A stretch of DNA of 32,247 nucleotides from Ignavibacteria bacterium RBG_16_34_14 (GCA_001802865.1 MHAF01000111.1:1-32247); one strand, 5' to 3'; shown: positions 10,813-27,871, counted from the first letter of the stretch. Program-made: numbers and translations. Notes: a model not told the origin generated them from the letters alone.

Positions 10813-12048
10813 CTATTTATCATATTGTTTTTCGTTAAGCTGATAGAATTTTATTTTCTGTTTATGATTTTCAACTTCATTTTTTATCAAATTCTCAGAT
10901 GTTGAAGTAGAAGAAAGTCTTTCCTTAAGTGTAGGAAGTATTCCTACTTCTAAAAGAATTACAAGTTCTTTTTTCCGTGTAATATTCTGGTCGCTTCCAA
11001 AAACGTAACGCAGACCAAAGAACCACCAGGGAAGATCTTTAAGAAAAGGAATTCCTGTACGAACGACACTTTCCTCATTTACAAAAAGACCACCAAGGAT
11101 CGCTTGTTCACCATTAAGCATTACAATCTGGGTCTCTGCACTTGTTTTCCTGATTTCAGTAGTTGTTTCACTCTGAACAAAGGAGCTTCTTTCTACAAGT
11201 ATATCGAGAAGAGTATAATTAACATTATCTTCCTCATAGATGTATGGCGTAACCTCTATTATTGTACCCGTGGGGAAGAATTTCTCAATAACGTTTCCTG
11301 CAAAGTCTCTTTGCTTTACAGAGAAGTCCGAACCAACTTGTATCCTTCCTTTATTTCTGTCTCTTACAATTATATTAGGGCTGGCAATAATTTCTCCTAT
11401 GTTTTCTTCTTCAAAGAATTTAAACATTGCTGTGGCCTCACCATAAAATTGTCCAAGATCAAATTTCGAGGATGAATTTAATTTAAAGTCCGGAGGATTC
11501 TGGGTTGTACCTGTACCACCCTCTAAGTTTGGGGATGGATCGCTTATTATTTCTCCTCCAACTGATAATCCATCTTTAGATAATAAAACTTTCCAGTCAA
11601 TGCCTCTGTTCCTGGCTTCATTAACATCCATTTCAAAAAAGACCGCAGATATCTTTATATCTCTTGAATCAATAGAAGCATATGTTTCAGGCGTTCTGTT
11701 AAGAGAAGGATCATCCTTCCTTTTAATAATAATTATATCTTCCTTCTCTTCCAGGGTAAGGTTATGATACTGGACCAGCACAATTAAAGCCTTATCGTAA
11801 GCCATGTTGCTTATCTCTATGCCTATCGGCTGATCGGACTGAACTGTAGAAACGATTCTTCTTCCGGTAGTGCTTTCACTTATTTTACTTAAAAGCTCTA
11901 CCGCCTGATCGAATTTTACATTAGCTGAAAGAGAAACTAATTCATCGGGATTTGTAAAGCCTTTAAATTCTTTTTCAAGATATTCCTGTGGAAAAGACTG
12001 TACCGCAAGAAGCAAAAGAACGAAAAATATTTTAAGTGTTGTTTTCAT
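10813..12048 (-). CDS. pilQ: Short type IV pilus/T2SS secretin (PilQ/GspD-like)
   Basis: I chose the ATG at 12046-12048. It has a GAGAG ribosome site 7 nt upstream and gives a clean signal peptide (MKTTLKIFFVLLLLAVQSFP). An in-frame ATG at 12064-12066 overlaps the previous stop but would add only six polar residues. The mature protein has a small N-terminal STN/N0-like domain (about 30-125). The secretin core follows (about 140-380): SAVFFEMDVNEARNRGIDWK, ASPNIIVRDRNKGRIQVG, VMLNGEQAILGGLF and GIPFLKDLPWWFFGLRYVFG. At ~411 residues it is much shorter than typical PilQ (~600-700); the AMIN domains and stacked N1 repeats are missing. It should form the outer-membrane pore for the pilus. Confidence 0.87.
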   Translation of the reverse strand: MKTTLKIFFVLLLLAVQSFPQEYLEKEFKGFTNPDELVSLSANVKFDQAVELLSKISESTTGRRIVSTVQSDQPIGIEISNMAYDKALIVLVQYHNLTLEEKEDIIIIKRKDDPSLNRTPETYASIDSRDIKISAVFFEMDVNEARNRGIDWKVLLSKDGLSVGGEIISDPSPNLEGGTGTTQNPPDFKLNSSSKFDLGQFYGEATAMFKFFEEENIGEIIASPNIIVRDRNKGRIQVGSDFSVKQRDFAGNVIEKFFPTGTIIEVTPYIYEEDNVNYTLLDILVERSSFVQSETTTEIRKTSAETQIVMLNGEQAILGGLFVNEESVVRTGIPFLKDLPWWFFGLRYVFGSDQNITRKKELVILLEVGILPTLKERLSSTSTSENLIKNEVENHKQKIKFYQLNEKQYDK

Positions 12049-12062
12049 TTTTACTCTCTCAA

Positions 12063-12947
12063 TCATTTATTTGGTTTTTCTTTTTCAAGTTCGAGTTCAA
12101 CTTTCTCAATAATACCGCCTTTGTTAAGAATAAAGCTTACTCTGTTTCTTTCATAATCTATCTTAGTTAGGTATCCAAGGTATACTGGTTCACCTTCCCA
12201 AACTAAGTATGTATTGCCTTTACCATCAGAAAGGAAAGCCCCTTCGGGAATGAGAGCCAGTAGTTTAGCTCCTTGTACATCCAGAAGCTCATCATAATTA
12301 GGTGGGATTTCATTCCTGATAATCGGGTAGAAAGCATCATATACAGGATTTGTAGTAAGATTGTTTTCTACTAATGAAGCAGTTACAAAACGATCTGTTG
12401 AAGAAAAATAAGTCCCTGCAGTCAAAGTAAATCCAACCAGGAAGTTTGGAATTCCATCTTTGTCGTTTGCTACAAGGTTTCCTAAAGATAAGCCTGTTAT
12501 TTTCTTTAATTCTTTACTCTGTTCAATTGAATAAATAAGACTGAAGAGGTCATTATATGATGCTCTTCCGCTTAATTTGTATTCATGGTAAAAGAATTCC
12601 TTGTCCTGCTTCTGTTCCAGATATTCAACATCAACCTGAGATAGCGGCGAGTAAGGTATACTTACATTATTAATAAAGTTATAAAACTTTATTGAAGACA
12701 AGTCTTTAGGAATATTAAACTTTCTTGCTGCGAGAATTGAATCCAGCACGGAAGATCTTTTTAAAAGACCTTGATACTGAACAGTAAGCTGTTCGGTGTT
12801 GTATTCGTTAGCTTTTAACTCTTCGAGTTTAGCTCTTTTTTCGTTCAGTTTACTGCGCTGAAAGAAAAATACATACACGCCACTGATAAAAACTATCAGC
12901 ATCAGTAAACCTACTAGACCAAGGGTGCTTCTTAATTTCTTGTTCAT
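12063..12947 (-). CDS. pilO: PilO-like inner-membrane platform protein with PilP-like C-terminal domain
   Basis: The protein has 294 residues. A short cytoplasmic start is followed by one TM helix (about 10-29) and a coiled coil (about 30-70). The ferredoxin-like periplasmic PilO/GspM region is at about 85-180, including GRASYNDLFSLIYSIEQSKEL. After a linker, the last ~75 residues (LLALIPEGAFLSDGKGNTYL through VSFILNKGGIIEKVELELE) look like the small beta domain of PilP/GspC that contacts the secretin. That makes it a probable PilO-PilP fusion linking inner membrane to outer-membrane channel. Its ATG overlaps the PilM-PilN stop by ATGA (12944-12947), and the secretin follows at once. The PilP assignment rests on position and pattern only. 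Confidence 0.75.
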   Translation of the reverse strand: MNKKLRSTLGLVGLLMLIVFISGVYVFFFQRSKLNEKRAKLEELKANEYNTEQLTVQYQGLLKRSSVLDSILAARKFNIPKDLSSIKFYNFINNVSIPYSPLSQVDVEYLEQKQDKEFFYHEYKLSGRASYNDLFSLIYSIEQSKELKKITGLSLGNLVANDKDGIPNFLVGFTLTAGTYFSSTDRFVTASLVENNLTTNPVYDAFYPIIRNEIPPNYDELLDVQGAKLLALIPEGAFLSDGKGNTYLVWEGEPVYLGYLTKIDYERNRVSFILNKGGIIEKVELELEKEKPNK

Positions 12948-14488
12948 TGTATTACATTCTTTTGATAGTTTGATAAATCAAATGTTATAAGGAACTTGTA
13001 AGTGTTTTGCTCCCTAAGAGCTTCATAACTTACACTTTTAAGAATTGCAGATTCAATAGAATATGCAAATTCGGTAAGTACATTCCTGTTGAGAGCATAA
13101 CCTTCTATTGTAACTTTACCTTCAGCAAAATTCAGTTTTGTTATCCACATGCTGTTTTTGCTTCCGACAAAGTCTGATACATGTTTTAATACCTGCTGCC
13201 AGACTCCAGTACCTGCCGATGCAGAGTCAAGAATAGTTTGTGTCTGATCAAAACCGGAAATTTTTGTTTCGATCTCTGCTATCTTTGTTAGTATTTCCTG
13301 ATTTTGTCTCATCAGGATAGTTTGTTCCGCAATCTGGTTATCAAGCTGATTAATCTCTTTCTGGTTTTCGAGTATATACTGAGTTGCAAAAAAAGTTATA
13401 CCAAACAATAGGGGCAGCATTGCATAACCATGCCAGCCAAACTGAAAGAATTTCTGATCTTCTTTTACATACTTTGGTAAAAGATTTACTCCTTTATGTA
13501 AATTTTCAAGCTCATCATAATAGTCGGTGGCAATAGCTACAGGTACGCTGAAGGCTGAAAACTTATCTTTTTCTTCAGGTGTTAATCCACCCAGGTCAAC
13601 ATCGCTGAATTCCAAGCGGGAAACGTTAGCTTCGGGAAATGTTCCATAAAAGGAGAGAATAAGATTTTCAGAATCATCTTCACCACAAACAATTATATTA
13701 TCTAATGAAGAGATTCCGCCATTTTCCATTTCAAGTAATATTTTAGAGAAATAAACATCATATGTATGAAGATTAAGTGTACCAATATCTAATGTCGCTC
13801 CAACATGTTTTAATTTACGGCCTTGCAAAAAAATCAGCTTGCTGTATTCTTTTCCTATATATACTATTAATGACTGATCATCGGGGAAAAACTTTTTGGT
13901 TTTAGCCACATAATAGGCAAGTGAAATTTCGGCACTTTTCACAGAAGGTATTTTAAAATGCCGCTTGCCATGAAAACGGGCTAATGAGTTGATCATATTT
14001 ATACAGGCAACTTCACCGCCAAGGAATACGGATAGAAGAGACTTATCAGCAAGCTCAACATATCCAAGATTTTGCTTTTCTACAGCAATATTTTTCGATT
14101 CCTGTATATCATCTATTATATCATCCGCTACTTTTGCTGAAGCAAGTTGCTTTGAACCTTCGTAGATATGGTAATGAAGTGCGGGTTCGGTTAATGCAGG
14201 AATGAATAAACTTTTCTTAAGATTAATTCCTGCTAAATTATTGGCAAGAGTTGTAACAGTAGAGGCCGCCATTTTGCTGTCAAGTGAAGTATCCTGGCTC
14301 TGAATCTTTTCTAAATCCAAGTCGGTACCTTCAATACTAAGATTTGAGATTCCTTCTTCAAGGTCTATGGTTGGCTGGACAAAATCAACAGCTGCCGTTT
14401 TAAGAACCATAAGCTTACCATTGACCTTTGATACTACAGCTACTTTGGTATCATTGCCTTCAAAATAAATACATATTAAGGGTTTCAT
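12944..14488 (-). CDS. pilM: PilM-PilN fusion protein
   Basis: The protein has 514 residues. The first ~320 are a divergent actin-like PilM domain (phosphate-1-like LICIYFEGNDTKVAVV, then SLIVYIGKEYSKLIFLQGRK, HVGATLDIGT and a late IIVCGEDD). A TM helix follows at about 352-372 (GYAMLPLLFGITFFATQYIL), then a coiled coil (about 373-410). The C-terminal part matches PilN/GspL (WQQVLKHVSDFVGSKNSMWI, then TIEGYALNRNVLTEFAYSIE). In most bacteria cytosolic PilM and membrane PilN are separate and bind through the PilN N-terminal peptide; here one chain covers both, as in GspL of type II secretion. It starts 2 nt after the PilT stop and overlaps the next gene by 4 nt. Confidence 0.82.
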   Translation of the reverse strand: MKPLICIYFEGNDTKVAVVSKVNGKLMVLKTAAVDFVQPTIDLEEGISNLSIEGTDLDLEKIQSQDTSLDSKMAASTVTTLANNLAGINLKKSLFIPALTEPALHYHIYEGSKQLASAKVADDIIDDIQESKNIAVEKQNLGYVELADKSLLSVFLGGEVACINMINSLARFHGKRHFKIPSVKSAEISLAYYVAKTKKFFPDDQSLIVYIGKEYSKLIFLQGRKLKHVGATLDIGTLNLHTYDVYFSKILLEMENGGISSLDNIIVCGEDDSENLILSFYGTFPEANVSRLEFSDVDLGGLTPEEKDKFSAFSVPVAIATDYYDELENLHKGVNLLPKYVKEDQKFFQFGWHGYAMLPLLFGITFFATQYILENQKEINQLDNQIAEQTILMRQNQEILTKIAEIETKISGFDQTQTILDSASAGTGVWQQVLKHVSDFVGSKNSMWITKLNFAEGKVTIEGYALNRNVLTEFAYSIESAILKSVSYEALREQNTYKFLITFDLSNYQKNVIQ

Positions 14489-14490
14489 TT

Positions 14491-15720
14491 TTATGCCGCC
14501 GTTAATAGTTGTTGAATTCTGGTTTTATTGTTTGCATAAGCAACCGCGTTTTCCAATGAAATTTTATTTTCGAGGTATAAACGTTTTAAATCCTGTTCCA
14601 TTGTTATCATACCCATATTACCCCCCTGGTTAATCATCATATAAATTTCACTTGTGTTATTATTTTTTATTGCTGCCTTAACACTTGGGGTAGCAATCAA
14701 AACTTCCTTTGCCATAATAATTTTCCCATCCGAACTCGGAATAAGCTTCTGAGAAACAACTGTAACCAACACATCAGCTAACCTGTTCCTTACGCGTTCC
14801 TGTTCATGGGGATTAACTTCTGCTATAATTCTGTCTATAGATTCTGTTGCTGATGATGTGTGAAGTGTTGAAAAAACCTTATGACCAGTATCAGTTACTT
14901 CGAGAGCAGCCATAATTGTATCAGGGTCTCTCATTTCACCAATTACAATTATATCGGGGTCCTGTCTTAATGCCTGGATAACACCATCTTTAAAAGTAAG
15001 TACATCGCGTCCCACTTCCCTGTGCCTCACAATGGATACTTTTGACAGATGGACATACTCTATCGGCGCAGCTACAATAACTATATGGCAGGGATCAAAA
15101 TTATTATGGAAGTCAATAAACGAATCAAGTGTTGTTGATTTACCCGAGCCCGTTATACCGGTAACAAGTGATAGTCCGAATTTAATGTAATTGTGGCTCA
15201 TCATCTTAACTACATTAGGATGAAAACCAAGCGATTTAAGTGGTCTGATTGCCTGGTTAATAGCTCTCATATTAAGAGCCAAGGTATCAAGATCGTAATA
15301 CGCATCTGCTCTGAATCTTACATCAATATTTCTTCTATCATAAAAGTAGGTATAGCTGAAATCAAGGTTCCTGGTAAGTACAAGATATTTTCTCTGGTTT
15401 GAATTGAGCAGATTAATTATAAGTGCGGCCGATTCATCAAGAGTAAAAGTAGGAAGATCTTCTATCCTGTGTTTCTTACCATAAATTCTCATCCAGATTG
15501 CTGCTGTATTTCCATGTCCTCCAATTTCAATATCTGAAGCATCTCTTTCTATCATGCTTGTTAAAAATTTATTGAATAGGATTCTTAAAGATATTCTCTC
15601 CTCGGAAGTCAACTTTTCAATATTTTCTAAAATGTAATTAACCCTCTCGGGCCCGTAAAAAGCCGGTGGGATTGTTTTAGCGAACTTTTCCAGAATAGTT
15701 TTTTCTTTCGTGACTGCCAA
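14491..15720 (-). CDS. pilT: PilT/PilU-like pilus motor ATPase with altered Asp box
   Basis: This 409-residue secretion ATPase has an N-terminal PAS-like domain with RDASDIEIGG (about 58-67). The core carries Walker A GITGSGKSTT (Gly188-Lys194), Walker B VIGEMRDPDT with Glu262, and His box HTSSATESIDRIIAEVNP. Segments VSQKLIP and AIKNNNTSEIYMMINQG match PilT rather than PilB, and the tetracysteine motif of PilB is absent. The Asp box, normally TIEDPIE, reads VAAPIEYVH: Ala217-Ala218 replace the acidic pair. The following KVSIVRHREVGRD is normal. The protein may be a PilU-like accessory motor or a low-activity retraction ATPase. A 68-nt gap separates it from pilB. Confidence 0.88.
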   Translation of the reverse strand: MAVTKEKTILEKFAKTIPPAFYGPERVNYILENIEKLTSEERISLRILFNKFLTSMIERDASDIEIGGHGNTAAIWMRIYGKKHRIEDLPTFTLDESAALIINLLNSNQRKYLVLTRNLDFSYTYFYDRRNIDVRFRADAYYDLDTLALNMRAINQAIRPLKSLGFHPNVVKMMSHNYIKFGLSLVTGITGSGKSTTLDSFIDFHNNFDPCHIVIVAAPIEYVHLSKVSIVRHREVGRDVLTFKDGVIQALRQDPDIIVIGEMRDPDTIMAALEVTDTGHKVFSTLHTSSATESIDRIIAEVNPHEQERVRNRLADVLVTVVSQKLIPSSDGKIIMAKEVLIATPSVKAAIKNNNTSEIYMMINQGGNMGMITMEQDLKRLYLENKISLENAVAYANNKTRIQQLLTAA

Positions 15721-15788: not shown

Positions 15789-17579
15789 TTACTCATCGGA
15801 TGTTCCGGATATTACTTCTTCAAATGATGTAATTCCCATTTTTACCTTTTCTATTCCTGAATCCCTTAGCATTAACATACCATCTGCTTTAGCTTGTGCT
15901 CTGATCTTTTCTTCATCAACTTCAATACCAGAACGAACTATTATCTGACGTATTTCTTTTGTAAAGTAGAGTGACTCATGAATGGCAATTCTACCTTTAA
16001 AGCCAGTATTATTGCACTTTTCACAACCTTTAGCTTCATAAAAAGGATTACTTTTCCATTCATCTACTTTAAGATTAAGATGCTCAACAATAGCCTCGTC
16101 AATTTTATTTAATTTCTTTTTACAGTTATCGCATAATCGCCTGATCAATCTCTGGGCAACAATAATATTAATTGCATAAGCGATAAGGAAAGGTTCTATA
16201 CCCATTTTATAAAGACGTGCAACTGCACTTGGCGCATCGTTAGTATGTAATGTTGAAAAAGTTAAGTGACCGGTGTTCGCAAGCTTAATTGCAACTTCAG
16301 CAGTTTCTTTATCTCTCATCTCACCAACAAGTACTATATCAGGATCGTGACGAAGTATTGATCTGATAGCCTGTTCAAATCCCATTTTATATCCTATCTT
16401 TAACTGCCGGGCACCATTGATTACATACTCAACAGGATCTTCAACTGTAAGTACGTTTACAGTTGGATCAATAACCTGGCAAAGGGCTGCAACAAGAGTT
16501 GTACTTTTTCCACTTCCTGTTGGCCCGGTCAATATCACCATTCCCTGAGGCTGTTTTATCGCTTTCTCAAATGCTTTGCGTGCATAACCCGCTAAGCCAA
16601 GTTTATCGAGATCTTTAATTACTTTTCTATCATCAAGAATTCTTATTACAACGCTTTCAAATTTATTTTTTAATTCAGTTCCCACTGTAGGTAAAACCGA
16701 AACTCTGAACCTTATAACCTGACCATCAATTTCTCTCTGTATAAAACCATCCTGAGCCATTTCTCTTTCAAAACGGTCCATTCCTTTTGAGCGATCTTTA
16801 ACTACGGCTACAACAGCTTCTGGTAGGGTTCCATCCTGAATATGCCAGGGTTGAAGATTGCCATCAATTCTAATTAAAATTTCTGTTCTGTTTCCCGGTT
16901 TAGGAACAAAATGAATGTCACTTGCACCTTTTCTTACTCCTTCAACAAGTGCACCTTCAACAAGATTTATAAGAGCACTTTTATTTATTTCTGCATCGAG
17001 AGCCTCTTCATCAAAAGATTCATCACGCTCAATATGCATTTCTGTATTTTCTGCTTCCTCCATCATCTTTAAGAATACGTTTTCAGGAGGAATAATTGTA
17101 TTAACTAACTTTTCATACTCCTTATTTCTTATAAAAAGGACTTCATACTTTTTTGCATTTAACCCGAATGCAATCTTTGGAATATTTCTATCTGTCGGGT
17201 CAACTGCTGCAAGAATTAATTTATCTTTTATCCTTTCATCAAACATGAAGGGTAAAACTTTATGTTCAAGCATCTGCTGCTTAAGACCTTCAGAAGAGTT
17301 TGTAACTAATTGTTTTAGAGCGTTTATTTTTTGAGGGGAAATTTCTTCAATCGCAACATCCAGTTCACGGAAAGCATAAAGAATTGCAACTTCCCTGAAG
17401 ATCTGGTCGTGATCATACCCAAACTCCTGAACAAGGATCTGCGCAAGGTTTCTTTTAATCTTGCTTTTGTCATTATTTTTTGCTTGTAATGCTTTATCCA
17501 GCATTACGCCATCAATTATTCCTTTTTTAAAAAGGAGATACCCGATTTTGTCGGTCATTTCAAGATTGGTCTCGATCAT
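15789..17579 (-). CDS. pilB: PilB/GspE-type assembly ATPase
   Basis: The protein has 596 residues, close to the PilB length. The N-terminal domain (about 8-150; IGYLLFKKGIIDGVMLDKAL) is of the T2SSE_N/MshEN type. The central domain begins near 205 (VRKGASDIHFVPKPGNRTEI). Walker A GPTGSGKSTTL lies near 350, the intact Asp box is LTVEDPVEYVINGARQ, Walker B is VGEMRDKETAE, and the His box is STLHTNDAPSAVARLYKMG. The zinc tetracysteine is Cys483/Cys486 and Cys519/Cys522. All catalytic signatures are present, unlike in the neighbouring PilT. It drives pilin polymerisation at the PilC platform. Confidence 0.93.
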   Translation of the reverse strand: MIETNLEMTDKIGYLLFKKGIIDGVMLDKALQAKNNDKSKIKRNLAQILVQEFGYDHDQIFREVAILYAFRELDVAIEEISPQKINALKQLVTNSSEGLKQQMLEHKVLPFMFDERIKDKLILAAVDPTDRNIPKIAFGLNAKKYEVLFIRNKEYEKLVNTIIPPENVFLKMMEEAENTEMHIERDESFDEEALDAEINKSALINLVEGALVEGVRKGASDIHFVPKPGNRTEILIRIDGNLQPWHIQDGTLPEAVVAVVKDRSKGMDRFEREMAQDGFIQREIDGQVIRFRVSVLPTVGTELKNKFESVVIRILDDRKVIKDLDKLGLAGYARKAFEKAIKQPQGMVILTGPTGSGKSTTLVAALCQVIDPTVNVLTVEDPVEYVINGARQLKIGYKMGFEQAIRSILRHDPDIVLVGEMRDKETAEVAIKLANTGHLTFSTLHTNDAPSAVARLYKMGIEPFLIAYAINIIVAQRLIRRLCDNCKKKLNKIDEAIVEHLNLKVDEWKSNPFYEAKGCEKCNNTGFKGRIAIHESLYFTKEIRQIIVRSGIEVDEEKIRAQAKADGMLMLRDSGIEKVKMGITSFEEVISGTSDE

Positions 17580-17685: not shown

Positions 17686-19059
17686 TCAAGTTATGTTTTT
17701 CTCCACGTAAATCTGATTTGATGCGCCTGGTGTTTTGGGCCGTACGGTTGCTGTTTCTGCAGACACAAGTGTCAATGCAATCATTACAACCATAATTACC
17801 ATTGCTATAGAGATCTGAACGAATTCAATAAAGTTTTTCAGTTTATAAACCGTTTCGCTTTCATAATAGTTTGCAAGCTGCAAGCTTGTATTTTTTAATG
17901 TACCGGTTTCCTCCCCTGAGTGAAGTCTTGAGAGAGCTGTTTCTGTAAAAACACCTGAAGCTGTAAATGCATCAGTGACACCTACACCTCGTTTTATCAT
18001 TAAAGGTATAGCAATGTTTTTAACTCTTTCCTCGAAGTACCTGTTACCTGTTGCTTCTGCCGCTATTCTGATAGGCTCTATGCTTTCCGCCGAACCACTA
18101 TAAAGGGTATAAAATACACGGCAGTAAACTTCTATTAATGTTTTATGAATCAGCGAACCAAGTACAGGAATTTTTAGAATATGTTTATCAATTATATAAC
18201 CACCTTTTTTTGTGAGAGCTAAACGCCATAATACAATGGGGGGCAATAATGTTAATGCCGCAACAAGAATAGAATTCTCAATAAGAAAATCACTCATGGC
18301 AAGTGTAAACGCTGTCATTGGAGGAAGGTCAATTCCGAACTTAACAAAAAGTTTCGCTGTTTCGGGAAATATATATCCCACATAAAAAAGTACAGCAAGA
18401 AAGAGAACAAATAATGTAACTGCAGGAGTTATAAGAGCGCTTCTTAAATTCTTTCTAAATTCCTGTTTTCTCTCAAGGAACTTGGCCGTGGCCCTGTAAA
18501 TCTCTGTCATATTACCACTCTTTGAGGCTAACCCTAACATATATGCAGTAAATTTTCCAAAAATATTTTGATATTTTAAGAATGTGGTTTCGCTGTCTGC
18601 ACCTTTTTTAAGATCATTATTAATTTCTTTTAAAGTTTCCTTAAGGGTTTTATTCTCGGTGTCATTAATAAGAAGAGTAAGGATTTCCCCATAAGGAAGC
18701 TTTTGTTCAAGAAGCTCAGCGCTTATTTTAACATAAGTTACAAGGTCGGCCTGGGGAATTTTGCGTTGAAAATCAAATAACTTTTTATTAATTGAAAGTA
18801 CCTCAAAACCAAGTTTACTTAGAGCATCTTCAACTTCTTTTTTTGAATAAGCTTTTTGTTCACCCTTAACCGGTTTTTCCTTTCCTTTGCGGGCTCTGTA
18901 AACGAAAGTAGCTTTTTTCTCAATCGTATTTATCTTTAACTGGTTTTTTTCCGCCAGACGATAAATCTTCTTTTTACCTTCAGTGATTGTACTGGCAGAG
19001 AGAGAGCCGCTTATACTTTGCCCGTTTACTTTTTTTGCAGTGAACTTAAATTCAACCAT
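17686..19059 (-). CDS. pilC: PilC/GspF-type inner-membrane platform protein
   Basis: This 457-residue polytopic protein has two T2SSF domains. The first (about 105-230) ends in TM ITPAVTLFVLFLAVLFYVGY with the GYIFPETAKLFVKFG motif. A second hydrophobic segment is near 255-280. The second T2SSF domain (about 300-425) carries FYTLYSGSAESIEPIRIAAE and RLHSGEETGTLKNTSLQLAN, followed by the final TM (ISIAMVIMVVMIALTLV). An N-terminal cytoplasmic extension of ~100 residues precedes domain one. PilC is the platform on which PilB acts. It is the first machinery gene after the pilin terminator, with 350 nt of non-coding sequence upstream, so it probably has its own promoter. Confidence 0.92.
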   Translation of the reverse strand: MVEFKFTAKKVNGQSISGSLSASTITEGKKKIYRLAEKNQLKINTIEKKATFVYRARKGKEKPVKGEQKAYSKKEVEDALSKLGFEVLSINKKLFDFQRKIPQADLVTYVKISAELLEQKLPYGEILTLLINDTENKTLKETLKEINNDLKKGADSETTFLKYQNIFGKFTAYMLGLASKSGNMTEIYRATAKFLERKQEFRKNLRSALITPAVTLFVLFLAVLFYVGYIFPETAKLFVKFGIDLPPMTAFTLAMSDFLIENSILVAALTLLPPIVLWRLALTKKGGYIIDKHILKIPVLGSLIHKTLIEVYCRVFYTLYSGSAESIEPIRIAAEATGNRYFEERVKNIAIPLMIKRGVGVTDAFTASGVFTETALSRLHSGEETGTLKNTSLQLANYYESETVYKLKNFIEFVQISIAMVIMVVMIALTLVSAETATVRPKTPGASNQIYVEKNIT

Positions 19060-19409: not shown

Positions 19410-19811
19410 TTATCTTACTTGAGTTACAGTAATGCTGGTTGGTGATACAACCGCCTGATGCTGAATATTCTGCCCAGCATCATTTTTTTCCGTACCTGTA
19501 CCAGTAATTGTAACTGACTGAGCGGTAAGTGCGGCAGAATAATTACCATTAGCTGTAGTATCGAGCTGTGAAGGTATTTCCCATCCATTACCAATGGGAC
19601 CGCCAGTATTAAAGGTGTTACTTCCACCACCCATAGATCCTGGTTTCTTATAATGCTGTTGTGCCATCGCACCGAGGTTATTTAAGTCGGATACTACGCC
19701 ATCTCTGTTTGAAGAAACAGCATTAGCATTGAACAAGTTGATACCAACAACTACGGCGATACCTACTACGATAACGCCAAGTACGATTAAGAGAAGCTGT
19801 TGTTGACCCAT
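19410..19811 (-). CDS. Pilin-like protein with ultra-short leader, copy 2 (probable major subunit)
   Basis: The protein has 133 residues. It begins MGQQQLLLIVLGVIVVGIAV, a hydrophobic helix that starts almost at the N-terminus. Gly2 would be the prepilin-peptidase -1 residue. No Glu is at +5. The rest is a small Gly/Thr/Ser-rich globular head with YKKPGSMGGG and VTITGTGTE, both shared with the upstream paralog. A strong ribosome site (AAAGGAG) precedes the ATG and a strong terminator follows, as expected for an abundant structural subunit. It lies in the same orientation as and close to the pilus machinery. A non-pilin single-pass protein is possible, but context and N-terminus favour pilin. 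Confidence 0.75.
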   Translation of the reverse strand: MGQQQLLLIVLGVIVVGIAVVVGINLFNANAVSSNRDGVVSDLNNLGAMAQQHYKKPGSMGGGSNTFNTGGPIGNGWEIPSQLDTTANGNYSAALTAQSVTITGTGTEKNDAGQNIQHQAVVSPTSITVTQVR

Positions 19812-19877
19812 TATTGATCTCCTTTATTTGTTGTAATTAGTTAGTTAGTTTTTTTATAGTTTATTAATTAAAGAACA

Positions 19878-20261
19878 TCATCTTATAACCAGTGTGTTGT
19901 AAGAATCTGAAGTTACTGTAGTTCTTACTTCTATTGAATCTTCACCTGTTACCACCTCAGTTCCCGTGCCAGTAATTTCCAATTCATCTTGCTGGATAAT
20001 TGTTATAGTATAATTACCTGTGGTGGTTGACTGCATACTACCGGGGATTGCCCAGCCTAAAAAAGATCTTCCTCCGCCACCAAATTCCCTTGGTTTTTTA
20101 TAATAGCCAATTGCCATAGATGCAAGGCTGTTACATTCATTGACTAAGAGGTCCCTTTTATTATCAATTGCTCCCTGCCGGAATAATTGAATTGAGATAG
20201 CAATAGCAATTCCTACTATAATAATTCCTAGGACTATAAGTAAAATTTGTTGCTGTCCCAA
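19878..20261 (-). CDS. Pilin-like protein with ultra-short leader, copy 1 (TTG start)
   Basis: This 127-residue paralog of the next gene has the same N-terminus (MGQQQILLIVLGIIIVGIAI), the same YKKP...GGGG...GW-IP region and the same ITGTGTE block. The start must be TTG (20259-20261): an in-frame TAA lies five codons upstream and no ATG or GTG is available, while the GQQQ start matches copy 2. The ribosome site is weak (AGAAAG). This suggests lower expression than copy 2, which fits a minor or alternative subunit. The spacing to copy 2 is 66 nt, so both probably share a transcript ended by the 19333-19370 hairpin. Confidence 0.72.
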   Translation of the reverse strand: MGQQQILLIVLGIIIVGIAIAISIQLFRQGAIDNKRDLLVNECNSLASMAIGYYKKPREFGGGGRSFLGWAIPGSMQSTTTGNYTITIIQQDELEITGTGTEVVTGEDSIEVRTTVTSDSYNTLVIR

Positions 20262-21007
20262 TTTTTGGTCTTTCTTTTATTCCTGATATTTCAAAACCTT
20301 TTGTAAAAAGTACTTCATCTGTTTTAAAAGGATTTAGTAATTTTTTCCTCGTTAAGTAATTTTTGCTTTTGCAAACTTCCTTAATCAGAACTTCCTTACT
20401 GGCAAATAAGCTCAATAAATTTTTCAAAAAACACATGATTTATATTTCCGCTCCTGGTGTATAAAAAAACGTGCCATCAGAAGTGATTTATTTATTATTA
20501 ATAGTAAGATAATTTCAGTTGAAAGGGATGAAAAAGACTTTTGTAGCTTTTACCTTTAAATCCTACGACTTTTCGTAAAATTTACTATGTGTTATTATAA
20601 GATAGAGTCATTAGTCTTTAGCATTCGTTGCATTCACTTAGGTCATTCACGTTATATTGTTATCGAATTATTAATTCTGTTGACTGCCATTCGGGATAGT
20701 GATATATTAATATAGTTTAAGTTCAAATTCTCAAAGTCTTATCATTTCAAAGGCCGTTATCTTCCCTTAATTTACACATCAACTTTCTTTAAGAACAATT
20801 TCAAGAAATAGTCTCAAGATGCGTCAGGAAATTTTCATGCCAATAGCAAAAAAACCTCATTTGTCAATTGTTTTAAACTTTTTTATCTCTGGCAAAACGT
20901 TTGACTATAATAAGTGGAGTCAAAAATTGCCCTCACTCACCACCGTTCGGGATGACTCCTAAAAGAACTAAATAAAACGTTCAAAAAAAATAGAAGGATA
21001 ATTAAGA
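20262..21007. other. 746-nt divergent regulatory region between the two pilin clusters
   Basis: No convincing conserved gene lies here. A 90-codon minus-strand ORF (20164-20436) starts in it and overlaps pilin copy 1 in another frame; see the findings. Visible structure: an AT palindrome TATATTAATATA (20703-20714); a 7-bp inverted repeat GGAGTCA...TGACTCC (20916-20922/20953-20959) in the probable 5' UTR of the plus-strand minor pilins; two copies of an ATTCGGGAT/GTTCGGGAT motif (near 20690 and 20945). It must hold the promoters for both the minus pilin genes and the plus minor-pilin operon. Confidence 0.6.
20889..20911 (+). promoter_or_regulatory. Candidate promoter for the minor-pilin operon
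   Basis: CTGGCAAAACGTTTGAC (20889-20905) has the GG and TTG elements of a sigma-54 site at the right spacing, but the essential -12 GC is GA. Directly after it, TATAAT (20906-20911) is a perfect -10 hexamer, without a good -35 at 17 nt. Either reading puts a start site about 80-100 nt before the first gene. Weak evidence. Confidence 0.25.
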
Positions 21008-21502
21008 ATGAATACCGGACAGATGATGCTTGCTTTAGGAGCGATGATTTTATTATCAACCACAGTATTAAGAGTTAATAGTAATTTTCTTATGAGCGAT
21101 ACTGTGCTTGATGAAACTAAATATAATTTTCTTGCTACTTCAATCGCTACCTCAATAATTCAGGAAGCAAAAAGTAAAGCTTTTGATGAAGCAACAGACA
21201 GTACTTCTATAAATGTTATTGGATTCCTCACCAATTTTGACAAACTTGGGCCCGATAACGGTGAAGTCCGTACGAATTTCAATGATTTTGATGACTTTGA
21301 TGGTTATTCGGGTGCAGATTCATCAATGCCATCGGCTGTTTTTTATTACTCATGTACAGTTAATTATGTTGATGGAAATAATCCTGATGTTACAGTTAAT
21401 AACAAAACATGGAATAAAATACTCACTATTACAGTTACCAGTCCTTACATGAATGATGTAGTTAGAATGTCAACAATTTATAGTTATTGGTTTTTCAGAT
21501 AG
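21008..21502 (+). CDS. PilV/GspI-like minor pilin with short leader
   Basis: The protein has 164 residues. It begins MNTG followed by the hydrophobic helix QMMLALGAMILLSTTVLRV. Gly4 fits a prepilin-peptidase -1 site; +5 is not Glu. ATSIATSIIQEAKSKAFDEA in residues ~44-65 resembles the post-helix segment of PilV/GspI proteins (lAxsliEeAk). The C-terminus is beta-rich (KILTITVTSPYMNDVVRMST). AGAAGGA is placed about 10 nt before the ATG. It is first of three genes separated by 9 and 12 nt, in the order seen for pilV-pilW-pilX minor pilins. These proteins would form the tip and priming complex. Confidence 0.7.
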   Translation: MNTGQMMLALGAMILLSTTVLRVNSNFLMSDTVLDETKYNFLATSIATSIIQEAKSKAFDEATDSTSINVIGFLTNFDKLGPDNGEVRTNFNDFDDFDGYSGADSSMPSAVFYYSCTVNYVDGNNPDVTVNNKTWNKILTITVTSPYMNDVVRMSTIYSYWFFR

Positions 21503-21511
21503 GAGGAACAA

Positions 21512-22111
21512 ATGGGATTTAGCAGCTTACTTGATATAATCGGATCAACACTAATCGGTGGAATGTTATTACTAATTCTGTTTCGCCTTAATGATGCATC
21601 GGCAGAAAACACTTACAATAATTCCGGAGAATTAACAAGCCAGCAGAATATCTCAACAGTTGTACAAATTCTTGAAACAGATTTCAGGAAGATTGGCTTT
21701 TGCAAAGACTGGAATAAAATCCCCAACCCCACTCAGGCAATAATTTTGGCAGATTCAAATAAAATAAAATTTTTAACCGATGTAGAAGCCGATGGGAATG
21801 TAGATACAATGTATTACTATATAGGATCCACAAATGAAATTCTCACTACGCCTAATCCGAGGGACAGATACTTATATCGAGTAGTCAATGGAGAACTTCC
21901 CGTTAAAGTTAATTTAGGAATAACGGAGTTTAGTCTGCTTTATTTCGATGTTATTAGTGATACTTTGAGTTTTCCAATTACTGTACCCGGGGCAATTCAG
22001 AGTATGCAAATAAATGTTGCTGTCGAAAACGTTGATGCCTACGATAATGAATACTCTTCGGTTTTCTGGAGACAGATTCGATTAGCAGCTCAGAATTTAA
22101 ATAATAGATAA
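21512..22111 (+). CDS. PilW/GspJ-like minor pilin with short leader
   Basis: The protein has 199 residues. It begins MG followed by FSSLLDIIGSTLIGGMLLLI. Gly2 is the candidate cleavage residue and Phe would be +1, as in classical pilins, but +5 is Leu and +6 Asp. The body shows the PilW/GspJ pattern: a region with VVQILETDFRKIGF, then a late GITEFSLLYFD and a SMQINVAVE strand. A strong AGGAGG ribosome site lies 5 nt before the ATG. It is the second gene of the minor-pilin operon. The family call rests on pattern and position. Confidence 0.72.
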   Translation: MGFSSLLDIIGSTLIGGMLLLILFRLNDASAENTYNNSGELTSQQNISTVVQILETDFRKIGFCKDWNKIPNPTQAIILADSNKIKFLTDVEADGNVDTMYYYIGSTNEILTTPNPRDRYLYRVVNGELPVKVNLGITEFSLLYFDVISDTLSFPITVPGAIQSMQINVAVENVDAYDNEYSSVFWRQIRLAAQNLNNR

Positions 22112-22123
22112 GGAGCCAAAATA

Positions 22124-23347
22124 ATGAACGGTAAAGCAACACTTTTGGTAGTAGCAGGTTTCAGTTTGATTTTTCTTGTTGTGGGAAGAAATTTAGGAAA
22201 TATTTCTAGCCGTGCAGTTGATAATTCTGTTGAGTATTATAACCAGACTGTTGCACACGAACTTGCTGTCAGTTCTGCAAACTTAGCCGCAAACCAAATT
22301 TTCTTTGATAATGCATGGAATACCGGATTTTCAAACCTTGATTTAAAAGGTGGAAAGATTAATGCTACTGTGCAGACAATTGATGTTATAAAGAATATCA
22401 AAAAGATAACTTCAGCTGGAACTTATCAGGGTAAAACACATACGGTTGAAGTTGTTCTTGCACCGAGCAGTTTTTCTAAATTTGCTTATTATTCAACAAA
22501 TGAAGGTGGAACAATTTGGTGGACTGGCAATGATACTGTTTGGGGACCTTTTCATACACAGGATCATTTGAGAGTGTCTAATCATCCGGTTTTTTATGGT
22601 AAAACAACCACGAACAAATCTTTAGTTTATTATAAAAACAAAAATACAGATCATCCAAAATTTTATGGTGGATTTGAACAAGGGATTGGCCTTCCTCTTC
22701 CGACAAATGGTTTATCTCCTATAGAAGCAGTTGCTGATGATGATGGTTATAAATTTACAGGTAAAGATACGGTTTATCTAACCTTTGCTGGAGATAGTAT
22801 TAAGTTCAGGTATCAATGGAATAAACCTGACACAACTGTTCTTACTGCTTCATTAGCACCTAACGGGGTTATCTTTGCAAAAGATGCTGTTGTCAGATTA
22901 AAAGGAACTGTAAAAGGACAATATACTGTTGCTGTTTCAGGTTCATCAAGCAATAAGGGAAAAGTTTTCCTTGACAACGACATTGTATATTCCCAAGATC
23001 CTCGTGTTTATCCGAATTCAACAGATTTATTAGGAATAGTAGCAAAGAATGAGATTTTAATAACAGAAAATACAGCAAATAATAATCACATAAACATCCA
23101 TGCCTCGATTTATTCTGAATCGAAAGGATTTGGTGCACAAAATTATAACTCAAGACCTGTTAGTGGAGACATAAATTTATTAGGTGGTATTATTCAGAAT
23201 ATAAGACAGGCAGTAGGAACCTTTAGTGGTTCAACAACAACGCATGGTTTTAATAAAAGATATAAATACGATGAAAGGTTAATGTACAGTTATCCCCCAT
23301 CATATCCGGGAACGGGTATTTTTGAAATCGTATCCTGGCAGGAATAA
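22124..23347 (+). CDS. PilX/GspK-position minor pilin with DUF4900-like domain
   Basis: The protein has 407 residues. It begins MNG followed by KATLLVVAGFSLIFLVVGRN; Gly3 is the candidate leader end. A helical stalk (about 25-65) leads to a large secreted domain. Residues 125-200 (SKFAYYSTNEGGTIWWTGND, then VWGPFHTQDHLRVSNHPVFY) look like the DUF4900 domain found in pilus-associated proteins. The later half is beta-rich with RVYPNSTDLLGIVAKNEILI and IHASIYSESKGF. It is third in the minor-pilin operon, where PilX or GspK sits in other systems, so it is a candidate tip protein. The ribosome site AAGGAG is clear and a terminator follows 76 nt after the stop. Confidence 0.75.
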   Translation: MNGKATLLVVAGFSLIFLVVGRNLGNISSRAVDNSVEYYNQTVAHELAVSSANLAANQIFFDNAWNTGFSNLDLKGGKINATVQTIDVIKNIKKITSAGTYQGKTHTVEVVLAPSSFSKFAYYSTNEGGTIWWTGNDTVWGPFHTQDHLRVSNHPVFYGKTTTNKSLVYYKNKNTDHPKFYGGFEQGIGLPLPTNGLSPIEAVADDDGYKFTGKDTVYLTFAGDSIKFRYQWNKPDTTVLTASLAPNGVIFAKDAVVRLKGTVKGQYTVAVSGSSSNKGKVFLDNDIVYSQDPRVYPNSTDLLGIVAKNEILITENTANNNHINIHASIYSESKGFGAQNYNSRPVSGDINLLGGIIQNIRQAVGTFSGSTTTHGFNKRYKYDERLMYSYPPSYPGTGIFEIVSWQE

Positions 23348-23459: not shown

Positions 23460-23637
23460 CCTCATCTTACATATCTGAAAAAATATTATGATAAACTTTC
23501 TCTTGTTATTAAAGGAGATTTATTTAATAAGGAAAGATTAATTGAAATATTTAATTTTAAACTTTGGTAAATATGATTATCTTATTGAAGATTATAAAAA
23601 GAAATTATTAGATGACAGAGAAAAAATTTCTAAATAG
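23460..23637 (+). pseudogene. Frameshifted 3' remnant of a gene overlapping the nucleotidyltransferase start
   Basis: From 23460 a frame reads PHLTYLKKYYDKLSLVIKGD and then LFNKERLIEIFNFKLW to a TAA at 23568-23570. One frame over, starting near 23560, it continues NFGKYDYLIEDYKKKLLDDR to a TAG at 23635-23637. The two halves look like one C-terminus broken by a single frameshift. The second stop lies 26 nt inside the next gene, the overlap expected of a coupled two-gene unit. No start or N-terminal part is present; the terminator sits where it would be. Confidence 0.5.
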
Positions 23638-24130
23638 AATGGCAAACGGAACAAAGGACATAGTTCAATTATTTCTTGATAAACTTAATAAATTAAAAAT
23701 TGACTACTGCGTAATTGGAGGTTTGGCAGTTAATGCTTATGCAGAGCCTGTTGCTAGTCTTGATTTGGACTTGGTTTTAGCAATTAATGATATTGGAAAA
23801 CTTCTTGAGCATGTTAAAAAGGATTTCAGTATTACAAAATTTGAGCATAGCATAAATTTACAACATCCCGATTCTGATTTGCGGATTCAATTACAAACAG
23901 ATTTAAGATATCAAACTTTTATTACAAACGCTTCTAAATCGAAAGTTTTAGGATATAAAATGAAAGTCGCTGCTTTAGAGGATGTGTTAAAAGGAAAAGT
24001 ATGGGCTTATTCTGACGAAGAGAGACGAAAAAGTAAAAGGCAGAAAGACTTAGCTGATATAATGCGTCTTATTGAAACTCATCCTCACCTTCACAATTTA
24101 ATTCCTGAAAATATTAAAAAGCTTATCTGA
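23612..24130 (+). CDS. Nucleotidyltransferase-fold protein (AbiEii/DUF6036-like)
   Basis: This 172-residue protein has the minimal polymerase-beta-type motif: Gly36-Gly37 in YCVIGGLAVNAY, followed by Asp51-x-Asp53 in ASLDLDLVL. A later DSDLRIQLQTDLRYQTFI strand and AALEDVLKGKVWA are typical of AbiEii/MNT-like or DUF6036 proteins, which transfer nucleotides to RNA or protein, often as toxin-antitoxin partners. No intact antitoxin is adjacent, only the broken frame upstream. Met10 (23639) is an alternative start. Its last 8 nt overlap the convergent end of aspS. Confidence 0.75.
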   Translation: MTEKKFLNRMANGTKDIVQLFLDKLNKLKIDYCVIGGLAVNAYAEPVASLDLDLVLAINDIGKLLEHVKKDFSITKFEHSINLQHPDSDLRIQLQTDLRYQTFITNASKSKVLGYKMKVAALEDVLKGKVWAYSDEERRKSKRQKDLADIMRLIETHPHLHNLIPENIKKLI

Positions 24131-25889
24131 TTTTCAAATGTAGTTCCTTCAATTGTTCTTCACTCACTTCAGAGGGACAATCATCCATTAAAGAAACCGC
24201 ACTTGCAGTTTTTGGAAAAGCAATTACATCACGTATTGAATTCTCCCCGGCAAAAAGCATAACCATCCTGTCAAATCCAAATGCTATTCCACCATGTGGA
24301 GGTGCACCGTATTTAAGGGCGTTCATCAGGAAACCAAATTTATGTTCTGCTTCTTCTTTTGAAATTCCCAGAGCTTTAAACATCTTCGCCTGAAGTTCAG
24401 AATTATGGATTCTTATACTTCCCCCTGCAATTTCATTTCCATTTAATACAAGATCATAAGCTCTTGCTTTTACATTTGCAGGATCCGTTTCCATTAATTC
24501 AACATCTTCAAGTCTTGGAGAAGTGAAGGGATGATGCATTGCATAAAATCTTTTTGTCTGTTCGTCCCATTCAAATAAAGGAAAATCTGTAACCCAGAGG
24601 AGCGCTGGTTCAGCATTGGATTTTATCAGATCAAGTCTTCTTGCCATTTCTAACCTTAATGTACCCATAATAGAAAGTGCTTTTAGACGTTGACCGGTAA
24701 TGATAAAAATTAAATCGCCTTGTTTTGCACCAACAGCTTTTACAAGGTTTTCTTTTTCCTCTTCTGTAAAGAATTTCATTACGGGAGCTTCAAGACCTTC
24801 AGCTTTAACTCTTATCCATATCAAACCAGCTGCGCCAAGTTTCTTTACAAAATCTGTAAGCACATCGAGCTGGTTTCTTGTGTAATCACCACACCCCGGT
24901 GATAATAGACCTGTGATGATTCCTTTATTATTTAATTGATCCTGGAAAACCTTAAATGTTGTTTTTGCAAAGACATCATTGAGAGTTTTCATTTCAAGAT
25001 TAAAACGGAGATCGGGTTTATCGCTTCCATATTTCTCCATTGCTTCATCAAAAGATAATCTTGGTATTGGCAGATGAAGTTCCTTATTCCAGATTTCTTT
25101 ATATAAAACTTTCATTAAACCTTCGGTAGCCAGGAAGATATCTTCTCTATCTATAAAAGACATCTCAACATCTATCTGGGTAAATTCCGGCTGACGGTCT
25201 GCTCTCAAATCTTCATCACGGAAACATTTTACAATCTGGAAATAACGATCAAATCCCGCCACCATAAGAATTTGCTTGTAGGTTTGGGGAGATTGTGGAA
25301 GTGCATAAAATTTCCCTTTATGAATCCTGCTCGGAACAAGATAATCTCTCGCACCTTCGGGAGTGCTTTTCATAAGGACGGGGGTTTCAACTTCAACAAA
25401 ACCATTCTTATCAAAATACTCTCTGGTTAATTGATACATCTTATGACGCAGTATAAAATTTTTCTGTATAGAAGGTCTCCGCAAATCGAGATAACGGTAT
25501 TTTAATCTTAAATCTTCACTCGCATTAACCTCGTCGCTAATTGGAAACGGAGTTGTTTGGGCTTCATTAAGAATTACAAGTTTTTTTACCATTACATCAA
25601 TATGTCCGGTGGGAATTTTTGAGTTATCTGTTTCCGGCGGACGCTTCCTTACGGTTCCTTCAACAGAAATAACAAACTCATTCCTTAACTTTCCCGCAAG
25701 CCGATGAGCTTCTTTATCGAATGAAGGTTCAAAAACAACCTGTGTAATTCCGTATCGGTCGCGGAGATCAATGAATATTAATCCGCCTAAATCACGGCGT
25801 GTATCTACCCAGCCGTTAAGTACAACGACCTCTCCAATGTTACTTTTCCGCAGTTCTCCGCAGGTATGGGTTCTTCTCTTAAAAAGCAT
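24123..25889 (-). CDS. aspS: Aspartate--tRNA ligase
   Basis: This 588-residue class IIb synthetase charges tRNA-Asp. The N-terminal OB-fold anticodon-binding domain (about 1-110) contains GWVDTRRDLGGLIFIDLRDR. Motif 2 is FRDEDLRADRQPEFTQID at about 218-236. A bacterial GAD insertion spans about 290-410. Motif 3 is GGIAFGFDRMVMLFAG at about 528-545. Length and layout match bacterial AspRS. Whether it also charges tRNA-Asn cannot be told by eye. It is divergent from the phosphorylase gene, with 85 nt between starts. The tail overlaps the nucleotidyltransferase gene by 8 nt. Confidence 0.97.
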   Translation of the reverse strand: MLFKRRTHTCGELRKSNIGEVVVLNGWVDTRRDLGGLIFIDLRDRYGITQVVFEPSFDKEAHRLAGKLRNEFVISVEGTVRKRPPETDNSKIPTGHIDVMVKKLVILNEAQTTPFPISDEVNASEDLRLKYRYLDLRRPSIQKNFILRHKMYQLTREYFDKNGFVEVETPVLMKSTPEGARDYLVPSRIHKGKFYALPQSPQTYKQILMVAGFDRYFQIVKCFRDEDLRADRQPEFTQIDVEMSFIDREDIFLATEGLMKVLYKEIWNKELHLPIPRLSFDEAMEKYGSDKPDLRFNLEMKTLNDVFAKTTFKVFQDQLNNKGIITGLLSPGCGDYTRNQLDVLTDFVKKLGAAGLIWIRVKAEGLEAPVMKFFTEEEKENLVKAVGAKQGDLIFIITGQRLKALSIMGTLRLEMARRLDLIKSNAEPALLWVTDFPLFEWDEQTKRFYAMHHPFTSPRLEDVELMETDPANVKARAYDLVLNGNEIAGGSIRIHNSELQAKMFKALGISKEEAEHKFGFLMNALKYGAPPHGGIAFGFDRMVMLFAGENSIRDVIAFPKTASAVSLMDDCPSEVSEEQLKELHLKIR

Positions 25890-25974
25890 TTTTTCTTGAA
25901 TTATAAATCGTGAGGGATAAAAATAATCAATAAAGAAAGGGGTTACAAATAATAATTATTCTTAATTTTACATT

Positions 25975-27279
25975 ATGAATGTTGTTGATCTTATACGAAA
26001 AAAAAGGGATGGGAAAGCTTTAGAAAAAGATGAGATTGAATTACTTATTTCCGGTTATACAAAAAATAAAATACCCGATTATCAGTTCTCCGCTTTTTTA
26101 ATGTCTGCATATCTAAGGGGGATGAATTCAAAAGAAACTTCTTATCTTACTAATGCAATGCTATATAGTGGTATAGTATTAAACTTAGATTCTATCCCTG
26201 GCGTAAAGATAGATAAACACTCAACAGGTGGTGTTGGGGATAAAACCTCCTTAATTATTGCACCAATTGCTGCAGCAGCAGGAGTTAAAGTCCCTATGAT
26301 TTCAGGAAGAGGACTTGGACATACAGGAGGAACTCTCGATAAGCTTGAATCAATTCCTGGTTTCAGAACAAATTTATCAATCAGCGAATACAAGAGAATA
26401 TTAAACAAATGTGGTGCTGTTTTAATCGGACAAACAAAAGATATTGCCCCTGCAGATAAAATGATTTACGCTTTAAGAGATGTAACTGCAACTGTTGAAT
26501 CTATTCCTTTAATAACTTCAAGCATAATGAGCAAGAAACTTGCTGAAGGAATTGACGGGTTGGTGCTTGATGTTAAAACGGGTAACGGTGCTTTTATGAA
26601 AAAAGAAAAAGATGCAGTTGCGCTTGCAGACTCTCTTATCTCAACGGCAAAGGCTTTTAATAAAAAAGTAATCGCTTTTATTACCAATATGGACCAGCCG
26701 CTTGGAAATTATATTGGCAATTGGCTTGAGGTTTATGAATCAATCTTAATCCTTAAGGGAGAGAAGAGAAACGATCTATATGAATTATGCATTACACTTG
26801 CAGGGACAATGATCTTTCTTGGAGAGAAAGCAAAAACACAAGAGCAGGGAGAATCTATTGCTGAAGAGTTAATGAGTAATGGAAAAGCTTATCAAAAGTT
26901 TATTGAAATTGTTAATGCTCAAGGCGGAGATATTGGCTTTATCAAAAATCCCGAAAAATATCCGAAGCCTTCTTACAAAAAGGTAATAAAATCATCCGTG
27001 AACGGTTATTTAAAAAGTGTAAATACATTTGAACTAGGTATGGCTGCTGTTGAGCTTGGTGCAGGAAGAATGAAGAAAGAGGATAAGATTGATCCAAAAG
27101 CAGGAATTATTTTCAATTACAAAATTGGGGATAAAATTAAAGAGGGCGATGTGATAGCAGAACTTTTTTCTGACAAGAAAAAAAGCATTTTACATGTTGA
27201 AAAAAGATTTAACAACCTGGTGGAATTTTCTGATAAGAAAATCGGTCCACCAAAACTTATAAAAAAAATAATAAATTAG
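25975..27279 (+). CDS. Pyrimidine-nucleoside (thymidine) phosphorylase
   Basis: The protein has 434 residues, the usual length. It cleaves thymidine, uridine or deoxyuridine with phosphate to base plus (deoxy)ribose-1-phosphate in nucleoside salvage. The family signature KHSTGGVGDKTSLIIAPIAA (near residue 80) and SGRGLGHTGGTLDKLESIPG are intact, as are YALRDVTATVESIPLITSSI and LDVKTGNGAFM. The C-terminal alpha/beta domain has DPKAGIIFNYKIGDKIKEGD. It could be deoA- or pdp-type; the sequence alone does not decide. No clear ribosome site precedes the ATG. The ferritin-like gene follows after 10 nt. Confidence 0.95.
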   Translation: MNVVDLIRKKRDGKALEKDEIELLISGYTKNKIPDYQFSAFLMSAYLRGMNSKETSYLTNAMLYSGIVLNLDSIPGVKIDKHSTGGVGDKTSLIIAPIAAAAGVKVPMISGRGLGHTGGTLDKLESIPGFRTNLSISEYKRILNKCGAVLIGQTKDIAPADKMIYALRDVTATVESIPLITSSIMSKKLAEGIDGLVLDVKTGNGAFMKKEKDAVALADSLISTAKAFNKKVIAFITNMDQPLGNYIGNWLEVYESILILKGEKRNDLYELCITLAGTMIFLGEKAKTQEQGESIAEELMSNGKAYQKFIEIVNAQGGDIGFIKNPEKYPKPSYKKVIKSSVNGYLKSVNTFELGMAAVELGAGRMKKEDKIDPKAGIIFNYKIGDKIKEGDVIAELFSDKKKSILHVEKRFNNLVEFSDKKIGPPKLIKKIIN

Positions 27280-27289
27280 GAGAATAAAA

Positions 27290-27742
27290 ATGGCTGACAA
27301 AAAAAAGATAGTTGAAAACCTTACTAAAAGTTACTGGCTGGAAATAGAAACAGTAATTAACTACATCTCAAACTCAGTTAATCTTGATGGCGTGAGAGCA
27401 GAGGAAATAAAAAAATCTCTGGCTGTAGATATTACAGAAGAAATAACTCATGCACAGAGACTTGCAAAAAGAATAAAAGAGCTTGGTGGTACAGTTCCGG
27501 GTTCATTTGATTTTAAAGCAGGACAGATAAAATTACAAACACTTGAAGATACAACGGATGTGGTTTCCGTAATTGAGGGCGTAATTGAAGCTGAAAACGG
27601 TGCAATTAAGCAATACAACAAAATAATAAAGTTGTGTGATGGTGTTGATTATGTAACACAGGATTTATGTATTCAACTACTGGGAATGGAAGAATCTCAT
27701 CGCATTGAATTCCAGGGATTTTTGAAAGAATATAAGAAGTAA
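27290..27742 (+). CDS. Bacterioferritin-like diiron protein without the heme methionine
   Basis: This 150-residue four-helix ferritin-like protein carries Glu18, Glu51, His54, Glu102, Glu134 and His137. These match the ferroxidase ligand pattern of bacterioferritin (E...ExxH...E...ExxH), and the first three have the same residue numbers as in E. coli Bfr. The residue that supplies the heme ligand in Bfr (Met52) is Ile52, so heme binding at the dimer interface is unlikely. It probably oxidises and stores Fe(II), but a Dps-like or rubrerythrin-like role is possible. AGGAGAA precedes the ATG by 5 nt and overlaps the phosphorylase stop region, so the two genes are likely one transcript. Confidence 0.83.
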   Translation: MADKKKIVENLTKSYWLEIETVINYISNSVNLDGVRAEEIKKSLAVDITEEITHAQRLAKRIKELGGTVPGSFDFKAGQIKLQTLEDTTDVVSVIEGVIEAENGAIKQYNKIIKLCDGVDYVTQDLCIQLLGMEESHRIEFQGFLKEYKK

Positions 27743-27751
27743 TCGTTGTAT

Positions 27752-27799: not shown

Positions 27800-27871
27800 C
27801 CATTTCCTTAATAAGATTTATTTATATTAAAAGTGTCTTTGAGTTTAATTTTTTAAAAGTGAGGGTGTTTT

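Follow-up and report, generated by a model that had tools for sequence, protein, structure and literature searches.

Leaderless pilin-like subunits in an Ignavibacteria pil locus and a candidate type IVa-like pilus system without a prepilin peptidase

The locus described here lies on contig C111 of the metagenome-assembled genome (MAG; 2.74 Mb, 78.6% complete) of Ignavibacteria bacterium RBG_16_34_14, an organism that belongs to the Ignavibacteriales and has Ignavibacteria GWC2_36_12 among its close relatives. The window, meaning the whole analysed stretch of 32,247 nucleotides, carries a type IVa-like pil gene set together with five pilin-like proteins whose leaders are extremely short or missing. 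The minus-strand operon runs in the order pilin 2, pilin 1, PilC, PilB, PilT, a PilM-PilN-like fusion, a PilO-like protein and PilQ, after which come a response regulator and a large hybrid histidine kinase. Divergent from it, the plus strand carries three genes for proteins of 164, 199 and 407 amino acids (aa), with the order and relative sizes of PulI-PulJ-PulK. A direct check of the open reading frames (ORFs) confirmed the positions and N-termini that the original prediction, an earlier reading of this DNA, had given for the five subunits:

19410..19811, minus strand: major pilin 1, leaderless (MGQQQLLLIVLGVIVVG...), 133 aa, starts MGQQQLLL, adjoins pilC, present in 71 of 79 relatives
19878..20261, minus strand: major-pilin paralog 2 (LGQQQILLIVLG...), 127 aa, TTG start followed by GQQQILL, 44% identity to pilin 1
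21008..21502, plus strand: minor pilin, PulI/PilV-like by position, starts MNTGQMM, first gene of the conserved trio
21512..22111, plus strand: minor pilin, PulJ/PilW-like, starts MGFSSLLD with an invariant Asp, present in 75 of 79 relatives
22124..23347, plus strand: minor pilin, PulK/PilX-like by size and gene order, starts MNGKATL, weak DUF4900 match

The two major-pilin paralogs of the window carry MGQQQLLLIVLG. They belong to a family, here called GQQQ pilins, of which 204 distinct ORFs were collected from relatives across the order, the class and the phylum. Gly2 and Gln4-Gln5 occur in all 204 and an MGQQQ start in 199; positions 2-9 read G-Q-Q-Q-L-L-L-I across the family. The leader consists of at most M or MG in 204/204, so a class III signal peptide with a hydrophilic leader is not present. 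An upstream in-frame stop lies at a median of four codons before the start, and no in-frame ATG, GTG or TTG is found upstream in 198 of the ORFs (the other six have some such codon), which makes a longer leader impossible in nearly all of them. A Shine-Dalgarno-like motif precedes the start in 180. This survey of the upstream frames rules out start-codon miscalling as the source of the short leaders and, together with the fixed N-terminal lengths of the minor subunits, shows that the leaders were rightly read as very short. Counterparts of pilin 2 begin with TTG or GTG in 32 of 48 cases, against 3 of 156 for pilin 1; the conserved weak start of pilin 2 perhaps sets the subunit ratio. Glu at mature position 5, usual although not obligatory in type IVa pili (T4aP), is not present in the GQQQ major pilin, and the N_methyl prepilin motif PF07963 has no match in any of the five proteins.

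Sequence comparison connects the family to canonical pilins below threshold throughout: profile matches of the major pilin to the Geobacter pilin reach E 0.6, and the profile-profile alignment to canonical pilins is weak (P 0.12). The pilin identity is thus carried by fold and context, not by sequence, and the alignment register against canonical pilins could be off by 2-3 residues. An AlphaFold2 model of the major pilin, built with 106 sequences, has a mean confidence (pLDDT) of 92.1 and a lollipop shape, with a helix at 2-55 and a four-stranded sheet. Its best Foldseek match in the PDB is the full-length PAK pilin 1oqw (probability 0.99, TM 0.62, E 0.047), and further pilin entries stand at ranks 5, 7 and 9 of the same list. 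By predicted fold and gene context, the GQQQ proteins are pilins.

The minor subunits have leaders of 1-4 residues, with lengths that are fixed in each class. The I-like N-terminus reads Mxx[G/S/A/V]Q in 42/42 sequences, 35 of which have Gly ahead of the helix, and the K-like one reads MxG[K/R], with Gly at position 3, in 36/38. J-like subunits start with MG in 35/43 and keep a Leu-Asp pair in 13/13 sequences of one set and 42/43 of another, the Asp being mostly at position 8 or 6 (Met = 1). The claim that none of the five proteins has Glu5 is literally true, with the qualification that the J-like subunit keeps this invariant Asp near position 5. Likewise, Gly directly before the helix is absolute in the major pilin, whereas other residues occur there in J-like and I-like relatives, which also start with MAY-, MST-, MNE-, MQF-, MSGS- or MGNV-. 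A single Gly-specific cleavage rule for all five subunits is consequently not upheld. The sole family lead for the J-like protein is a sub-threshold match to NF007848, a PpdB-type minor pilin (E 0.006); its AlphaFold2 model (pLDDT 82.7) has a long N-terminal helix at 3-59 and seven strands. PDB searches with the J-like and K-like proteins gave no match. Two more I-J-K sets, all leaderless, are encoded elsewhere in the same genome (L210:4405-6755 and L211:3246-5309, on contigs C19 and C142), with the N-termini MNTGQ/MGFST/MGGKA and MGNVQ/MSTILD/MGKGL, which suggests interchangeable tips.

The remaining pil genes of the operon encode the machine:

17686..19059, minus strand: PilC, platform protein; phmmer match to PilC in 3jc8 (5e-24), T2SSF domains
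15789..17579, minus strand: PilB, extension ATPase; PF00437 (1.9e-101), TIGR02538 type_IV_pilB (3.4e-128, below its strict cut-off)
14491..15720, minus strand: PilT, retraction ATPase; TIGR01420 at 321.9 bits, above the curated cut-off of 319.1
12944..14488, minus strand: PilM-PilN-like fusion; PilN domain PF05137 (2.1e-4, 21.7 bits, cut-off 22.8), PilM half by synteny
12063..12947, minus strand: PilO-like protein, by synteny only
10813..12066, minus strand: PilQ, secretin; PF00263 (9.9e-25), TIGR02515 best in NCBIfam

The set had been described as a complete PilB/C/T/M/N/O/Q complement. Sequence matches bear this out for PilB, PilC, PilT and PilQ, while PilN falls just short of its threshold and PilM and PilO are assigned by synteny. 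The PilM-PilN-like ORF, in which the two proteins appear fused, and the PilO-like protein have no PDB match, and the latter has no family match either.

The search for prepilin peptidase homologues proposed with the original prediction gave a striking negative in the genome and in most of its relatives. PF01478, the A24 prepilin peptidase family, has no match in the genome itself and none above cut-off in 74 of 79 relatives. A lineage-specific profile, built on A24 sequences of the class itself, gave strong matches (E below 1e-58) only in the same five of the 79 relatives. PilC was found in 75 of these relatives. Six single-contig relatives that are 98-99% complete (G003, G009, G020, G027, G066 and G068) have the pilins and PilC and lack A24. 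At class level (245 genomes), the GQQQ pilin occurs in 129 genomes, PilC in 129 and both in 126 by tally; A24 occurs in 12, leaving 233 without it. At phylum level (296 genomes), the pilin is found in 101 and A24 in 38, with both in 11, so that 90 pilin genomes are without A24. Most of the phylum-level A24 matches fall in one family (f35) that lacks the GQQQ pilin, and their abundance there shows that the A24 search works in this phylum. Among 14 control genomes, PF01478 was positive in 12; Lactococcus lactis matched for PilC and N_methyl and not for PF01478. No recurrent peptidase gene was seen in the pil neighbourhood, and alternative peptidases were not sought proteome-wide. Canonical Glu5 pilins elsewhere in the genome, which might serve as substrates of the pil machine and would have spoken against a divergent pilin class, were rejected for this genome, as PF07963 is absent from it; the same motif is absent from 74 of the 79 relatives.

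An A24 enzyme might have been missed, either because the MAGs are incomplete or because the protein is very divergent, and the system would then be an ordinary type IV pilus with odd leaders. The incompleteness of the present MAG leaves room for this, as does the Lactococcus control, which escapes PF01478 and shows that the profile may miss members. It is nevertheless hardly credible. The closed genomes of the order and the lineage-specific profile led to the rejection of MAG incompleteness as the cause, A24 is readily found in the 38 genomes of the phylum, and GQQQ pilins have no leader to cut. This explanation is already largely refuted.

Where A24 does occur, the inspected loci place it in a separate operon, mostly adjoining an ATPase gene of its own and, on contigs that extend far enough, accompanied by its own secretin and PilM-like genes. 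Most of these loci hold canonical prepilins, such as GFSLTELMVVLVIIG. Canonical prepilins of other operons in the class have Glu5 and leaders of 6-29 residues, a range that leaves out one longer value with no upstream Met. GQQQ pilins sampled from six A24-bearing genomes (G051, G065, G188, G280, G332 and G391) still start with M/V-G-Q-Q-Q. Since A24 sits in its own operon, usually with long-leader substrates, and the GQQQ pilins sampled there are unchanged, it serves the other system; where present, A24 belongs to a system whose substrates need it. Borrowing of the enzyme from this second system was considered as well; it could apply to no more than 5/79 relatives and 12/245 genomes of the class, in which A24 lies in its own operon.

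The second system, a canonical type IV filament or type II secretion-like operon, encodes an A24 of its own and a GFSLTELMVVLVIIGVLVLLALP-type prepilin of high conservation. It is scattered among Ignavibacteria (L156-L171) and was possibly acquired sporadically. Canonical-type PilC genes are also found without a detected A24 (G003:C1:2518637-2519617, G137:C31, G179:C192 and G127:C52). In the closed genome G003, one PilC frame holds a stop, and the second system looks decayed there.

The reading preferred here, at a probability of roughly 0.7, is that the locus encodes a type IVa-like pilus system able to operate with no prepilin peptidase, its subunits being translated in mature form with at most Met removed. 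All evidence for it comes from sequence and prediction. Translation initiation would replace proteolysis, with the pilin start codon placed at the mature end or 1-3 codons before it. Methionine aminopeptidase removes Met when residue 2 is Gly, and the initiator Met of the major pilin would probably be lost in this way; the minor subunits would retain their few extra N-terminal residues. The N-terminal helix would hold the subunits in the inner membrane, from which PilB and PilC would pull them into a filament passing through PilQ. PilT would retract this filament, and the I-J-K trio would prime its tip. The J-like subunit would offer an acidic residue near the Glu5 position, and the major pilin Gln-Gln-Gln instead.

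The original proposal of a divergent class of pilins that follows an N-terminal rule of its own is supported. The accompanying idea of cleavage after Gly, with Gln, Phe or Lys as the +1 residue, is not supported, given that no known peptidase is present, the length of the supposed leader is fixed and some subunits lack the Gly. Translation is better read as starting at the mature end or within about three residues of it. A variant of the cleavage idea invokes a peptidase outside the A24 family that would cut the leader of 1-3 residues after a small residue, usually Gly, on the cytoplasmic side of the membrane, in the manner of PilD in other systems. Such an enzyme would be suited by the Gly that precedes the helix in 204/204 major pilins and 35/42 I-like subunits and by Gly3 in 36/38 K-like subunits. 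However, no such gene is conserved in the pil neighbourhood, and several J-like and I-like subunits have another residue in place of the Gly. A fixed N-terminal length is expected if the encoded end is the working end, and this is the pattern of the GQQQ system, whereas cleaved leaders vary in length, as the canonical operons of the class illustrate. A non-A24 peptidase is therefore considered unlikely.

Alternatively, the proteins may be membrane proteins that have a pilin fold but build no extended pili, as parts of a machine that has degenerated or been repurposed, for instance for secretion or adhesion at the membrane. The charged leader is absent and with it the usual topology signal, and the genome paper on Melioribacter roseus regarded its pilus genes as an incomplete set because pilA and pilD were missing (PMC3534657). 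Set against this are the extreme sequence conservation of the GQQQ pilins across the phylum, their 1-10 paralogs per genome (a count that is approximate for the present genome because contig C114 may be contamination), their near-perfect co-occurrence with PilC, the PilT match above its curated cut-off and the presence of the secretin. A degenerate or repurposed machine is accordingly judged quite improbable.

The peptidase-free system nevertheless has several points to contend with. Profile links of the GQQQ pilins to canonical pilins are all sub-threshold, the Foldseek E for the major pilin is no better than 0.047, and a Foldseek search of the PDB with the J-like model gave no fold match. 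I-like subunits mostly start with Met-Asn, which methionine aminopeptidase leaves intact, so Met removal is not a general rule. The small residue that almost invariably precedes the helix, in most cases Gly, could still be a cleavage site. The GQQQ pilin is encoded in every one of the 12 class genomes that have A24, though the separate operon accounts for the enzyme. Pilus formation by the GQQQ proteins and their N-termini are predicted from the genomes, and reviews hold that peptidase processing is required before assembly (PMC10191384).

Elsewhere in the window, an AbiEii-like nucleotidyltransferase gene (PF08843, 3.8e-5) lies at 23612-24130, between the minor pilins and aspS, and no partner gene was identified for it. 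In the same genome, C114:3500-9162 (L209) carries second copies of aspS, of a nucleoside phosphorylase gene and of the Band 7 protein gene, adjoining another GQQQ pilin. This block mirrors positions 24123-28741 of the window and is either duplicated or a contamination from a related strain. A search of plasmid records gave no lead.

Every type IV filament system is held to contain four common proteins, of which the prepilin peptidase is one (PMC10191384). If a branch of type IV pili that spans the phylum polymerises leaderless subunits unprocessed, for which the probability is likewise put at about 0.7, the peptidase does not belong to the universal core of these filaments. No description of leaderless pilins was found in the open-access literature. 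A lineage that has the machine and neither the enzyme nor the leader is a natural experiment on why processing exists, on the need for Glu5 and a free mature N-terminus, and on N-in insertion without a charged leader. MGQQQLLL offers a clean signature for finding the pili of such organisms.

Compared with T4aP, the system has homologs of PilB, PilC, PilT and PilQ, a pilin fold with an N-terminal helix of about 54 residues and a trio in I-J-K order. It differs in the lack of PilD in most genomes, of a class III signal peptide and of Glu5 in the major pilin, and in the apparent PilM-PilN fusion. It thus shares the T4aP machine but fails two defining features, the leader and the peptidase, and is not an ordinary T4aP. 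The pseudopilins of type II secretion (PulG/GspG and GspI-J-K) resemble it in the gene order and relative sizes of the trio and in a K-like subunit without Glu5; here, however, PilT is present, leaders and GspO are absent, and the J-like subunit has Asp, not Glu. Archaeal adhesion pilins of the Haloferax PilA type recall the GQQQ pilins in that they lack Glu5 and have a Gln at the N-terminus or close to it, but archaeal prepilins have leaders, which are cut by PibD. MSHA pili share with the present system loci without their own prepilin peptidase, but the genomes with such MSH loci encode one in other systems (Denise et al. 2019, PMC6668835), whereas most genomes here are without any. The closest precedent is Melioribacter roseus, for which pilT, pilQ, pilB and pilC were reported, pilA and pilD were not found and the set was inferred to be incomplete (Kadnikov et al. 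2013, PMC3534657). It belongs to the same order as the present organism. Leaderless subunits may be the reason that such organisms are described as pilin-less in genome papers, and the identification of pilA equivalents and of a lineage-wide pattern is new with respect to that work.

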